Origin: Mariniflexile sp. AS56
Lineage (GTDB): Bacteria > Bacteroidota > Bacteroidia > Flavobacteriales > Flavobacteriaceae
Assembly: GCF_030552475.1 (NCBI RefSeq)
Contig: NZ_JAUPED010000005.1
Location: 1 to 64,000 of the forward strand
Reading direction: 5' to 3'
DNA: 64,000 nt
Part shown: one piece after another, positions 41,788-44,962 of the stretch
How positions within the stretch are numbered: position 1 is the first letter of the stretch
Layout: every line of letters begins with the position of its first letter
Made by a program: the position numbers and the translations under genes
Notes under the pieces: model-generated
What the model saw: the letters and a program-made list of their open reading frames with translations, nothing else
Told to the model about the DNA's origin: nothing
The model's database searches: none

Positions 41788-43686
41788 ATGAGTGATTCAA
41801 TAAAACACGAATGTGGTATAGCCGTTTTAAGACTTTTAAAGCCCTTAGAATTTTATAAAGAAAAATATGGTACAGCCTTTTACGGGGTAAACAAAATGTA
41901 CCTTATGATGGAAAAGCAACACAACCGTGGTCAAGACGGTGCTGGGTTTGCAAGTATTAAGCTAGATACTAAACCAGGTGAACGCTACATTAGCCGTGTG
42001 CGATCTATTGCACAACAGCCTATTCAAGACATCTTTGCTCAAATAAACGACCGCGTAAACAAAGAGTTTGAGGCGCACCCAGAATATACAGACGATGTTG
42101 CTTTACAAAAAAAGCACATTCCTTATATTGGTGAAGTGTTTTTAGGCCACGTACGTTATGGTACTTTTGGTAAAAACAGTGTTGAAAGTGTACACCCTTT
42201 TTTAAGACAAAATAACTGGATGCACCGTAATTTAATTATGGCTGGAAACTTTAACATGACCAATGTTAAAGAGTTATTTGCAAACCTTATCAGACTTGGG
42301 CAACACCCTAAAGAGTACACCGATACCATTACCATCATGGAAAAAATTGGTCACTTTTTAGATGATGCTGTAAGCAAAATTTATAAAGACGTTAAAAAAG
42401 AAGGCTATAGCAAAATGGATGCTTCTCCATTAATTGCCGAACGTTTAAATGTTGCTAAAATATTAAAAAAAGCAGCTAAAGATTGGGATGGTGGCTATGC
42501 TATGGCAGGATTAATTGGTCATGGTGATGCGTTCGTGTTAAGAGATCCAGCAGGAATTAGACCAACATATTATTATAAAGATGATGAAATTGTTGTAATA
42601 GCATCAGAGCGTCCAGTAATTCAAACCGTATTCAACGTGAAATTTGAAGACGTAAAAGAATTAGAACCTGGCCATGCAATTATTACTAAAAAATCTGGTA
42701 AAGTAGTTATTAAGAAAATATTAGAACCATTAGAGCGTAAAGCCTGTTCATTTGAACGTGTTTACTTTTCTAGAGGAAGTGATGCTGAAATATATCAAGA
42801 ACGTAAAATGCTTGGTAAATTATTAATGCCAAAGGTATTAGAAGCTATTGATAACGACACTAAAAATACCGTATTCTCTTTTATTCCGAATACCGCTGAA
42901 ACCTCCTTTTTTGGAATGGTAGAAACAGCTGAAGCGGCATTAAACAAAAAGAAAACGGCTGCCATATTAAATGGACAACGTTCACTATCTGCAGAAAAAG
43001 TTACCGATGTGCTTTCTGAACGCATTCGTATAGAAAAAATAGCTATTAAAGATGTAAAACTAAGAACCTTTATTACTGAAGACAGTAGTAGAGATGATTT
43101 AGTGGCACACGTTTACGACGTTACCTACGGTGTAATTAAACCAACAGATAACTTAGTAATTATTGATGACAGTATAGTAAGAGGGACTACCTTAAAGATG
43201 AGTATTTTAAAAATGCTTGACCGTTTAAACCCTAAGAAAATTGTTGTTGTGTCTTCAGCACCGCAAATTCGTTATCCAGACTGTTACGGTATTGATATGG
43301 CAAATCTTGAAAGCTTAGTCGCTTTTAGAGCTGCTTTAGCACTGTTAAAAGAAACAGACAAATTCCATATTGTTAAAGACGTTTACTTGAAATGTATTGA
43401 ACAAACGGATTTAGATGATAAGCATGTACAAAATTTTGTAAAAGAAATTTACGATCCTTTCACAGACGAGCAATTATCTGATAAAATAGCAGAATTATTA
43501 AGTGATGACACGATAAAAGCCGAAGTTAAGATTATATTCCAATCGGTTGAAAATTTACATAAAGCCTGCCCTGAGCATTTAGGCGATTGGTATTTTACAG
43601 GAGACTACCCAACAGTTGGTGGTAACCGTGTTGTAAATCGTGCCTTTATCAATTTTTATGAAGGGAACAATGAACGTGCATACTAA
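41788..43686 (+). CDS. Amidophosphoribosyltransferase-like glutamine amidotransferase (long paralog)
   Basis: A 632-residue PurF-type protein, clearly longer than the usual ~480-510. The N-terminal Ntn glutaminase domain starts HECGIAVLR with Cys9 as likely nucleophile after processing; MEKQHNRGQDGAGFA, LGHVRYGTFG and MAGNFNMTN follow. The C-terminal PRTase domain has the PRPP loop NLVIIDDSIVRGTTLK and SSAPQIRYPDCYGIDM. Bacteroidota often carry such a long copy beside the normal PurF; whether it makes phosphoribosylamine is not known. Insertions lie in the glutaminase part and a ~100-residue tail follows the PRTase part. It is single, with the twin RNA elements downstream. Confidence 0.87.
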   Translation: MSDSIKHECGIAVLRLLKPLEFYKEKYGTAFYGVNKMYLMMEKQHNRGQDGAGFASIKLDTKPGERYISRVRSIAQQPIQDIFAQINDRVNKEFEAHPEYTDDVALQKKHIPYIGEVFLGHVRYGTFGKNSVESVHPFLRQNNWMHRNLIMAGNFNMTNVKELFANLIRLGQHPKEYTDTITIMEKIGHFLDDAVSKIYKDVKKEGYSKMDASPLIAERLNVAKILKKAAKDWDGGYAMAGLIGHGDAFVLRDPAGIRPTYYYKDDEIVVIASERPVIQTVFNVKFEDVKELEPGHAIITKKSGKVVIKKILEPLERKACSFERVYFSRGSDAEIYQERKMLGKLLMPKVLEAIDNDTKNTVFSFIPNTAETSFFGMVETAEAALNKKKTAAILNGQRSLSAEKVTDVLSERIRIEKIAIKDVKLRTFITEDSSRDDLVAHVYDVTYGVIKPTDNLVIIDDSIVRGTTLKMSILKMLDRLNPKKIVVVSSAPQIRYPDCYGIDMANLESLVAFRAALALLKETDKFHIVKDVYLKCIEQTDLDDKHVQNFVKEIYDPFTDEQLSDKIAELLSDDTIKAEVKIIFQSVENLHKACPEHLGDWYFTGDYPTVGGNRVVNRAFINFYEGNNERAY

Positions 43687-43787
43687 TGTAATGCATTCAA
43701 TTTTACTAGGTTAAAACTTTTAAAATACAGTTAATCCGAAAAATATGTCGTTTACCTAATAAATGACTGAAATTTCGAAAATACACA

Positions 43788-43795
43788 TAAATTAG
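43788..43795 (+). promoter_or_regulatory. -7-like box of small RNA unit 1
   Basis: TAAATTAG differs from TANNTTTG at one base and stands at exactly the same place relative to the repeat as the perfect box of unit 2. Confidence 0.5.
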
Positions 43796-43796
43796 T

Positions 43797-43872
43797 ATCA
43801 CCATAACATAAGTAGGTTAAGTTCATGGTAGATTTGGGGCAAAAAAAGGTGAACATCTGTTCGCCTTTTTTT
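43797..43872 (+). ncRNA. Tandem small RNA, unit 1
   Basis: A ~75-base unit. ACCATAAC (43800-43807) can pair with GTTCATGGT (43821-43829) with one bulged base. A linker reading AGATTTGGGGCAAAA comes next, then a terminator hairpin GGTGAAC (43848-43854)/GTTCGCC (43859-43865) followed by seven T. The first 50 bases match unit 2 at 49 positions, whereas the sequence between the units is unrelated. It has no coding frame of note. Its promoter, conserved body and terminator point to a transcribed RNA. Known family not recognised. Confidence 0.7.
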
Positions 43873-43980
43873 ATGGAATAAACTTTCCTTTTTCAAATAT
43901 TATTAAAAATCACCACAAACCGCTTAAGCCAATATATAAGTAGTTTGACCAAAATATTTTTCTCAACGCTCAAGCAGCTA

Positions 43981-43988
43981 TACATTTG
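43981..43988 (+). promoter_or_regulatory. -7 box of small RNA unit 2
   Basis: TACATTTG is a full TANNTTTG match immediately before the conserved TATCACC start of the second unit. Confidence 0.65.
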
Positions 43989-43989
43989 T

Positions 43990-44061
43990 ATCACCATAAC
44001 ATAAGTAGGTTAAGTTTATGGTAGATTTGGGGCAAAAAGGTGAACACTCGTTCACCTTTTT
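43990..44061 (+). ncRNA. Tandem small RNA, unit 2
   Basis: Second copy of the unit at 43797-43872. ACCATAAC (43993-44000) pairs with GTTTATGGT (44014-44022); the single body difference (C to T) lies in this stem and allows a continuous ACCATAA/TTATGGT helix. The terminator stem GGTGAAC (44039-44045)/GTTCACC (44050-44056) is now perfect, and its loop (ACTC) differs from that of unit 1 (ATCT). Stem kept and loop changed is what selection on structure would leave. T-tract at 44057-44061. Confidence 0.72.
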
Positions 44062-44145
44062 CATTTTATAAACTTTCGTAAAAAATAGCCACCCTTTTTA
44101 ATACTGTCTTATTATAATTTCTAATTCTTTTAGTCTTCTTATTTT

Positions 44146-44295
44146 GCGTTAGGGATTGAAGCGGTATCCTTTTTAAAACTAGTAACTAACAATACCCTTC
44201 AATAGAACTTAAAACTGGTAGATTGCTTTATCACACTCCTTGAGAAATAACGTTTTAAAAAGATTTAGCGAAAAGCCCGACCCTTGGGTAACGCC
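44146..44295 (+). repeat. Dispersed intergenic element, long copy
   Basis: A 150-base element with the same ends as 3584-3664: it starts GCGTTAGGGATTGAAGCGG and ends GCCCGACCCTTGGGTAACG plus CC. GCGTTA/TAACGC are terminal inverted repeats. Inside, CTTTTTAAAAC (44169-44179) and GTTTTAAAAAG (44252-44262) form an 11-base perfect stem, so the whole element can fold on itself. No coding frame is seen. Confidence 0.65.
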
Positions 44296-44353: not shown

Positions 44354-44962
44354 TTATTTCGCTTCTGCGTAACGTTTTTCAACTTCGTTCCAGTTAATAA
44401 CGCTAAAAAATGCATTAATATAATCTGGACGACGGTTTTGGTAGTTTAAGTAATAAGCGTGTTCCCAAACATCAATTCCTAAAATTGGTGTGCCACCACA
44501 TCCAACTCCTGGCATTAATGGGTTATCTTGGTTTGGAGAAGAACAAACTTCTACCTTACCACCTTTTTGAACACATAACCAAGCCCATCCTGAACCAAAA
44601 CGAGTTGCTGCTGCTTTTGCAAAAGCATCTTTAAATGCATCTACAGAACCATAAGCTGCTTCAATAGCATCTTTTAATTCACCAGATAAATAACCTTTTC
44701 CTTCTGGATTCATAACACTCCAAAATAAAGAGTGATTAAAGAAACCGCCACCATTATTTCTTACTGCACCATTGTTCATATCGAGGTTTTCAAGAATATC
44801 TTCAATAGATTTTCCTTCTAAATCTGTTCCTGAAATAGCGTTATTTAAGTTCGTTGTATATCCTTGGTGATGTTTTGAGTGGTGTATCTCCATAGTACGA
44901 GCATCAATATGAGGCTCTAAAGCATCATAAGCGTATCCTAATTCTGGTAATTCGAAAGCCAT
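44354..44962 (-). CDS. Superoxide dismutase [Mn/Fe]
   Basis: Converts superoxide to peroxide and oxygen in the cytoplasm. 202 residues, normal length. Metal ligands: His in [12 protein letters not shown] (~28), His in [11 protein letters not shown] (~78), and Asp/His in [15 protein letters not shown] (~165/169). GGTPILGID does not settle Mn versus Fe, so the enzyme may be cambialistic. It has a perfect -7 box 38 bases upstream and its own terminator. Confidence 0.95.

Follow-up and report, generated by a model that had tools for sequence, protein, structure and literature searches.

A multicopy family of tandem small RNAs in Flavobacteriaceae, probably antisense to the start of a small-protein mRNA

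The window analysed here, a stretch of 64,000 nucleotides of Mariniflexile sp. AS56 (contig NZ_JAUPED010000005.1, positions 1 to 64,000), carries two near-identical units in tandem, which are probably trans-acting antisense small RNAs (sRNAs) of a family present in several copies in Flavobacteriaceae and acting within an incoherent feed-forward loop. As in trans-acting base-pairing sRNAs, the family has kept its complementarity to an mRNA encoded at a distant locus, around the start of the latter. In the circuit that we propose, a LytTR-type response regulator would bind a tandem operator (−74 to −35) and activate each sRNA through a promoter of the −7-box type, while the same regulator would also activate the small-protein mRNA encoded between scoB and oppDF (the scoB–smORF–oppDF arrangement) and genes for secreted surface proteins. 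According to computed duplexes, the loop, 3′ arm and linker of the sRNA would pair with one to three sites in the small-protein mRNA, spread over its leader, its start and its first codons. Leaders of the surface-protein mRNAs would be paired to a lesser extent. The sRNA–mRNA duplex would block translation initiation, and the feed-forward loop would cap or delay the output of the regulon, whereas the 5′ hairpin may hold part of the antisense stretch until it is opened by a target or a protein.

Two RNA Units Between purF and sodA

A body of 49 bases occurs twice in the window, with starts at 43796 and 43989 (193 bases apart) and 48/49 identical positions, and 0/100 shuffles contained a match at ≤3 mismatches, which bears out the original prediction of two near-identical tandem units. 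The sole difference within the body (C at 43824 in unit 1, T at 44017 in unit 2) had been located in a stem, but it sits beside the 5′ stem, where, in the predicted folds, unit 1 has a bulged C and unit 2 a U that is able to pair; it says little about the selection on RNA structure that had been read from it, for which the covarying terminator (see below) does speak. Each unit is predicted to fold into a 5′ hairpin, followed by an unpaired linker and by a terminator hairpin with a T-run (z = −4.7 for unit 1 and −4.6 for unit 2; 0/200 shuffles as low), so that the predicted folds agree with the terminators announced for both unit ends. A simple terminator scan of the window listed the terminator of the second unit and missed that of the first.

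With predicted ends, sRNA 1 spans 43800–43872 of the + strand (73 nt) and sRNA 2 spans 43993–44061 of the same strand (69 nt). A covariance model made from relatives matches them at 43800–43871 (90.4 bits, unit 1 itself not being part of the model) and at 43993–44061 (87.2 bits), respectively. The 5′ hairpin of sRNA 1 is predicted at 43800–43829 (+). Its loop and 3′ arm, together with the linker AGATTTGGGGCAAAA, make up the antisense stretch (43811–43844, +), which is delimited by near-invariance and by the duplexes described below. Its terminator hairpin and T-run occupy 43841–43872 (+), an A-run being taken up in the predicted stem, while the terminator hairpin of sRNA 2 (44034–44061, +) is indicated by the predicted fold, the terminator scan and covariation. 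As had been claimed, a −7 box precedes each unit at an equal distance, TAAATTAG at 43788–43795 (+) for sRNA 1 and TACATTTG at 43981–43988 (+) for sRNA 2, with TAnnTT conserved at this place in the family. The start sites are modelled at 43800 and 43993, i.e., at the first base of the 5′ hairpin, because TAnnTTTG has been placed at −12 to −5 in Flavobacterium psychrophilum (PMC9723704).

The units are flanked by two conserved neighbours, upstream at 41788–43686 (+) and downstream at 44354–44962 (−). We take these neighbours, by recognition of their sequences, to be purF and sodA, respectively. Directly 3′ of the twins, the Flavo-1 motif (RF01705) is found at 44128–44286 (+; 51.1 bits vs. a gathering threshold of 42), and this is the only match in the region, no Rfam family reaching its gathering threshold over the twins themselves. 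Twelve related array loci were likewise devoid of Rfam matches at gathering thresholds, while the sub-threshold matches over the twins mostly involve terminator-like sRNA models. A coding interpretation of the units (ATG GTA GAT TTG GGG ...) was considered and rejected, the frame being broken in relatives by an inserted A and by the variable length of the A-run. Finally, text searches, made with the core sequence as well as for sRNA families of flavobacteria and other Bacteroidetes, covered descriptions rather than the Rfp sequences in the supplements of PMC9723704; no account of the family appeared among the papers listed, so that it is apparently undescribed so far.

Taxonomic Distribution of the Family

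When unit 2 was used as a BLAST query (E ≤ 0.01), matches were obtained in 29 of 60 relatives, all of them among the 37 Flavobacteriaceae (29/37; 28 with a match below 1e-8, and a partial match only in the 29th, G020), and in none of the 23 genomes from other families of the order (0/23). Counted by hand from the matches below 1e-8 in these 28 genomes, the number of copies per genome, which may miss diverged copies, is two in 16 genomes, three in six, four in three, six in one and one in two. Most copies are in tandem, spaced about 190–250 bp, and some lie elsewhere in the genome. Moreover, a 20-mer scan of genome contigs recovered at least 117 stretches, with titles naming many Flavobacteriaceae genera.

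In a sample of 247 genomes covering the phylum, the covariance model R2 scores at least 64.9 bits in 23 of 27 Flavobacteriaceae (membership inferred from list order; two genomes common to both samples), while in the other 220 Bacteroidota genomes it never exceeds 32.0 bits and gives no convincing match. Seven weak loci, six of them outside Flavobacteriaceae, were inspected, and the body was absent at all seven matches. The conserved copies that had been anticipated in other Flavobacteriaceae are thus present in 28/37 and 23/27 of the sampled genomes. Members of the family are also seen on a few contigs assigned to other Bacteroidetes (e.g., L102, L103), whose labels may be wrong. Since purF and/or sodA of the window type are found at 141 of 152 array loci (several of which overlap within one genome), the array is an old locus that has been kept vertically.

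Conservation and Covariation of the RNA

The loop, the 3′ stem arm and the linker (~33 nt), which together read AGTAGGTTAAGTTYATGGTA(A)GATTTGGGGCAAA, are nearly invariant across 225 copies. Part of this invariance is imposed by the selection of the copies (≤3–4 mismatches over about 30 bases of the invariant stretch, and exact match for the 20-mer contigs), but the observed conservation exceeds both criteria. The 5′ arm ACCATAAC is more variable, with pairing mostly kept.

When 36 equally long copies are compared at the 21 pairs proposed, pairing is present in 99.2% of cells, and changes on both sides occur in 8 of 13 terminator pairs and in one of eight hairpin pairs, a covariation reached by 0/500 shuffles. 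These 36 copies, which are the input of R2, come from 45 copies of 71 nt, of which 41 were chosen by the predicted hairpin register and five then removed (L028, L088, L093, L120 and L128; 5′ arm shifted in three of them). The 3′ hairpin folds in 45/45 copies of 71 nt. The terminator is well supported by covariation, while the 5′ hairpin is consistent with the alignment but little tested by it, because its 3′ arm hardly varies. Conservation in Flavobacteriaceae and covariation of the terminator together uphold the idea that the units are small RNA genes, each with its own promoter and terminator.

A Small Open Reading Frame Complementary to the sRNAs

A partial sRNA match at C45:237212 of the same genome led to the region between two genes that we recognise, from their sequences, as presumably scoB and oppDF. 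This region contains a conserved ORF of ~42 aa (L153:2244-2372, + strand, i.e., C45:237243 onward), lying 193 kb from the twins (237.2 kb vs. 43.8–44.1 kb on C45), both loci being syntenic. The 12 scoB–oppDF regions that were fetched display promoter-like sequence and then one to three sRNA-complementary stretches, and a frame of ~42 codons is open in 10/12, while G011 has an ORF with a different end. In G010 (L166/L366), the sRNA sites are present and the small-ORF frame does not run through, owing either to an assembly error or to decay. The possibility that the element is a second sRNA was examined and discarded, its promoter-like sequence, sites and ORF lying on the opposite strand.

In Mariniflexile sp. 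AS56, the leader of the ORF reads CCCCAAATCTACCATAAACTT just 5′ of the ATG, and a second site covers codons 5–12, the duplex between mRNA and sRNA reaching −42.4 kcal/mol (0/500 target shuffles and 0/500 sRNA shuffles as low). A profile of ten ORF proteins found a match in 24 of 68 genomes (the G010 match being false), and a broader profile added weaker matches. An ORF could be extracted from 21 of the 24 profile loci (excluded: L309, pattern miss; L310, partial; L312, false match), and the best duplex ranges from −36.0 to about −49 kcal/mol in 20 of them and is −27.0 in the remaining one. Among the ten loci reached by the protein profile rather than by their likeness to the sRNA, nine pair at ≤−36.0 and one at −27.0. 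The suggestion that the linker is the target-binding part is therefore supported and can be extended to the linker, the 3′ stem arm and the loop, which are jointly antisense to the small ORF over its leader and first codons.

Across whole genomes, the complementarity is not generally enriched: the 16-nt complement occurs at 66 places of the window's own genome at ≤3 mismatches, vs. 178 for the reversed control. With the 15-nt complement at ≤1 mismatch in 40 genomes, the places listed are mostly sRNA genes or the scoB–oppDF element, with about 18 scattered ones.

The codons of the ORF fall into two parts. In nine close relatives, codons 13–42 have a pN/pS of 0.26 vs. 1.57 and 1.52 in the shifted frames, while pS is 0.10 in codons 1–12 vs. 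0.47 in codons 13–42. This pattern makes translation of the ORF very likely and points to RNA pairing as the constraint on its start. Three ORF proteins were compared with Pfam and NCBIfam, and nothing was found above the cut-offs, one of them matching Tsi6 at E 0.16, below cut-off. The same codons bear on another reading, in which the scoB–oppDF RNA would act as a sponge for the sRNAs, the ORF being incidental. That the RNA offers one to three tandem complementary sites, and that the element has a stand-alone promoter with the shared operator, would fit such a role, but codons 13–42 evolve in a protein-like manner in one frame only and small ORFs with a similar C-terminus persist at scoB in lineages where pairing is weak, which makes a pure sponge rather improbable in our eyes. 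A dual role, as both sponge and mRNA, is possible.

At E ≤ 0.01 and excluding G010, the ORF was found in 28 of 50 sRNA-bearing Flavobacteriaceae vs. 0/12 of those lacking the sRNA (Fisher p 0.0003, uncorrected for kinship; G087 and G111, with weak model hits, being counted as lacking), five of the 28 coming from the broader profile (four match the last 16 positions only, and the matched frame of the fifth contains a stop). The first profile alone gives 23/50 vs. 0/12 (p 0.002, again uncorrected for kinship).

Variation within the antisense stretch gives a mixed picture. In G032, one of the two sRNAs reads GGTAAGATTTGGG, and a leader matches it with CCCAAATCTTACC. Considering the 11 genomes whose sRNA copies have the extra A (exclusively so in 10), the best site prefers the extra-A form in four, is indifferent in four and prefers the other form in three, so that co-variation of sRNA and leader is partial. 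Pairing is weaker in extra-A, more distant lineages (about −25 to −38). In genus g52 (presumably Flavobacterium), sRNAs are present in 14/14 tested genomes and the ORF at E ≤ 0.01 in 0/14, with none at scoB in the seven judgeable loci out of 14. Consequently, the ORF cannot be the sole reason for the invariance of the sRNA, which must have other partners there.

A Tandem Operator Shared by sRNA and ORF Promoters

The sequence between the units had been described as unrelated, which does not wholly hold, as a 40-bp operator precedes each of them, at 43726–43765 (+) for sRNA 1 and 43919–43958 (+) for sRNA 2. Both consist of two half-sites 20 bp apart, from −74 to −35 relative to the predicted start, and they are the window's second best and best places for an operator profile (20.1 and 22.7 bits, respectively) built from 157 sRNA promoters, the two window promoters being within the training set. 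In the 157 non-redundant upstream regions aligned on the −7 box, two similar half-sites (about gcATTTaAtCGAATTT and gcATTTcATCTAAAATTT) recur with a 20-bp period from −72 to −36, while no clear TTTG is seen at −33. The alignment picked the best box of each region, which favours conservation of the box itself.

Using this profile from sRNA promoters only, the promoter of the small ORF scores 12.5–24.5 bits in 19 of 21 loci (8.1 and 5.6 in the others) and 22.4 bits in the window's own genome, whereas 0.8% of 230-nt stretches of the window background reach 12 bits. Judged by eye, however, sRNA and ORF promoters do not space operator and −7 box alike, the difference being about 9 bp, which weighs against the proposed circuit.

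LytTR regulators bind two repeats of 9–11 nt with 11–13 nt between them, and YpdB, one of them, binds GGCATTTCAT repeats (PMC4847170). Like such operators, the sRNA operator has two direct repeats, 20 bp apart vs. 21 in the YpdB site; its half-site is about gcATTTcATC, and a period of 20 bp is compatible with the 9 + 11 nt of LytTR sites. The shape of the motif, along with its occurrence before a LytTR gene (see below), thus suggests a resemblance to LytTR sites.

Surface-Protein Genes and a Candidate Regulator

In the genome of Mariniflexile sp. AS56, the operator pattern occurs at 23 places vs. 14 for the reversed control, and four intergenic sites besides the ORF promoter reach ≥18 bits. 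One of them precedes the gene of a 1341-aa protein, in which Pfam identifies a ConA-like lectin domain and in which a T9SS type A sorting tail scores above the NCBIfam cut-off and below that of Pfam. The leader of this gene, CCCAAACTAAACTTAACCCTCTTGTG, pairs with the sRNA (2/500 target shuffles and 1/500 sRNA shuffles as low). A lipoprotein-like gene of the same genome has a good operator and no pairing (291/500 target shuffles as low), and a third operator-bearing gene pairs little (32/500). Strong intergenic operators were located at C2:208010-208039 (L344), C6:91639-91668 (L356) and C3:87878-87907 (L352); that of L352 precedes the lipoprotein-like gene, while no ORF of ≥60 aa starts on the same strand within 450 bases of that of L344.

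A search for the leader pattern in 30 genomes yielded 59 scored places outside sRNA genes, three of which have an operator score of ≥16. In all three, the matched codon is the start of a protein whose signal peptide was recognised by eye, one being the 1341-aa protein and two being new. A fourth secreted protein (L392) has a weak operator, with a score of 9.0 that falls between the 95% and 99% background points. The surface-protein region of three genomes, including that of L392, contains in addition a LytTR response regulator gene, about 4–8 kb off and with genes between (L419:6599-7294, − strand, with Response_reg and LytTR domains; kin in L420 and L421). The operator is found in the promoter of all three LytTR genes (15.8, 16.0 and 18.2, vs. 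0.2% of 300-nt background stretches reaching 15.8), and autoregulation of the regulator is probable on this sequence basis. The duplexes between the leaders of the regulator genes and the sRNA have raw values of −19.6 to −23.4.

Read together, these genes raise the possibility that one response regulator drives the surface-protein and small-protein mRNAs along with tandem sRNAs that have the same operator and are antisense to them, the first dozen codons being fixed by the pairing; we regard the odds for this complete scheme as evenly balanced.

Comparison with Known Antisense and Tandem RNAs

The gene of a type I antitoxin RNA usually, though not universally, lies beside its toxin gene or overlaps it. 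Long antisense pairing with the leader of a peptide gene and tandem RNA copies invite comparison with such modules, i.e., with zorO/orzO and dinQ/agrAB (PMC3919570, PMC3567139): the 42-aa peptide would be amphipathic and harmful when free, and the tandem sRNAs would be antitoxins in trans. The C-terminal stretch of the peptide, which bears lysines, would indeed be amphipathic as a helix (moments of 0.52, 0.69 and 0.25 in three examples), but no obvious transmembrane stretch is seen, the sRNA family also occurs in genomes that yielded no ORF, and the operator is common to the sRNA, the ORF and some secreted-protein genes. A small-peptide mRNA with an antisense RNA is found here, as in type I systems, while the two genes are neither adjacent nor overlapping, sRNA and ORF being at two separate syntenic loci 193 kb apart. 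These separate loci and the shared operator argue against a simple toxin–antitoxin module, a reading that we consider unlikely. The twins are like OrzO/OrzP and AgrA/AgrB as near-duplicate sRNAs antisense to a small-peptide mRNA, and differ from them by the distance to the target, by the shared operator and by the likely existence of further, secreted-protein targets (PMC3919570, PMC3567139).

Multicopy sRNAs of Bacteroides offer a second comparison. Like FopS, the twins belong to a family of short sRNAs in several copies with a conserved seed, a terminator and pairing near the start codon; however, the 5′ part of FopS is single-stranded instead of forming a hairpin, FopS has 12–15 copies per genome vs. 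1–6 here, and an operator shared with the targets, as present in the twin family, is not mentioned in the parts of PMC11697453 considered here (PMC11697453). A distant flavobacterial branch of the FopS/GibS family, which represses susC-like mRNAs, would account for the multiple copies, the −7 type promoter, the 3′ terminator and the start-region pairing, and the FopS alignment has a short stretch of the seed in common with the twins (UUCAUGGU..AGAUUU..GG). Occurrence in several copies and conservation of the seed, the promoter and the terminator are traits that the twins share with FopS. Yet the FopS model (RF04319) scores only 21.0 bits vs. a gathering threshold of 56 (20.5 on the opposite strand), and a protein with the RRM_1 domain (PF00076) of the FopS partner RbpB was found in 0/16 Flavobacteriaceae vs. 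2/10 genomes from other families of the order (G040 and G044). As targets, the susC start regions of the window's own genome were tested and rejected, since they pair no better than shuffles (mean −12.6; 99/100 target-shuffle and 31/100 sRNA-shuffle sets as low or lower, for 26 of 30 fetched loci, two without a start found and two mis-oriented being left out). By eye, many of these susC leaders (L230–L259) have an A/C-rich stretch like AACTAAACTAA before the ATG. By threshold, partner and tested target, the twin family is not a member of FopS, and a remote kinship appears very improbable.

The tandem sRNAs OmrA and OmrB are activated by OmpR and repress surface proteins through short seeds with Hfq. 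Like them, the units described here are twins, multicopy and putatively under a response regulator, and unlike them, they would pair over 20–30 bp at several sites rather than by short seeds. OmrA/OmrB are twin sRNAs of enterobacteria (PMC12692685). Among flavobacterial RNAs, Rfp18 of Flavobacterium psychrophilum is reported to pair through its third stem-loop and to affect metalloproteases (PMC9723704). The Rfp sRNAs and the twins are small RNAs of the same bacterial family, the Flavobacteriaceae, and some Rfp RNA of that study may be a member of the twin family.

Significance for Flavobacteriaceae

To our knowledge, post-transcriptional control in Flavobacteriaceae has been little explored. 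Rfp18 is one flavobacterial sRNA for which a deletion phenotype is described (PMC9723704). What the twin family adds is a widespread sRNA for which a concrete predicted target can be named, together with precisely placed pairing sites, an operator in common and a LytTR protein as candidate regulator. Secreted surface proteins and a conserved small protein are thereby connected with an sRNA. The small ORF would be a clear example of codons constrained by an sRNA gene at another locus. If the proposed circuit is true, it would represent an RNA brake matched to its regulon and widespread across the Flavobacteriaceae, where the search for an RbpB-type protein was negative.
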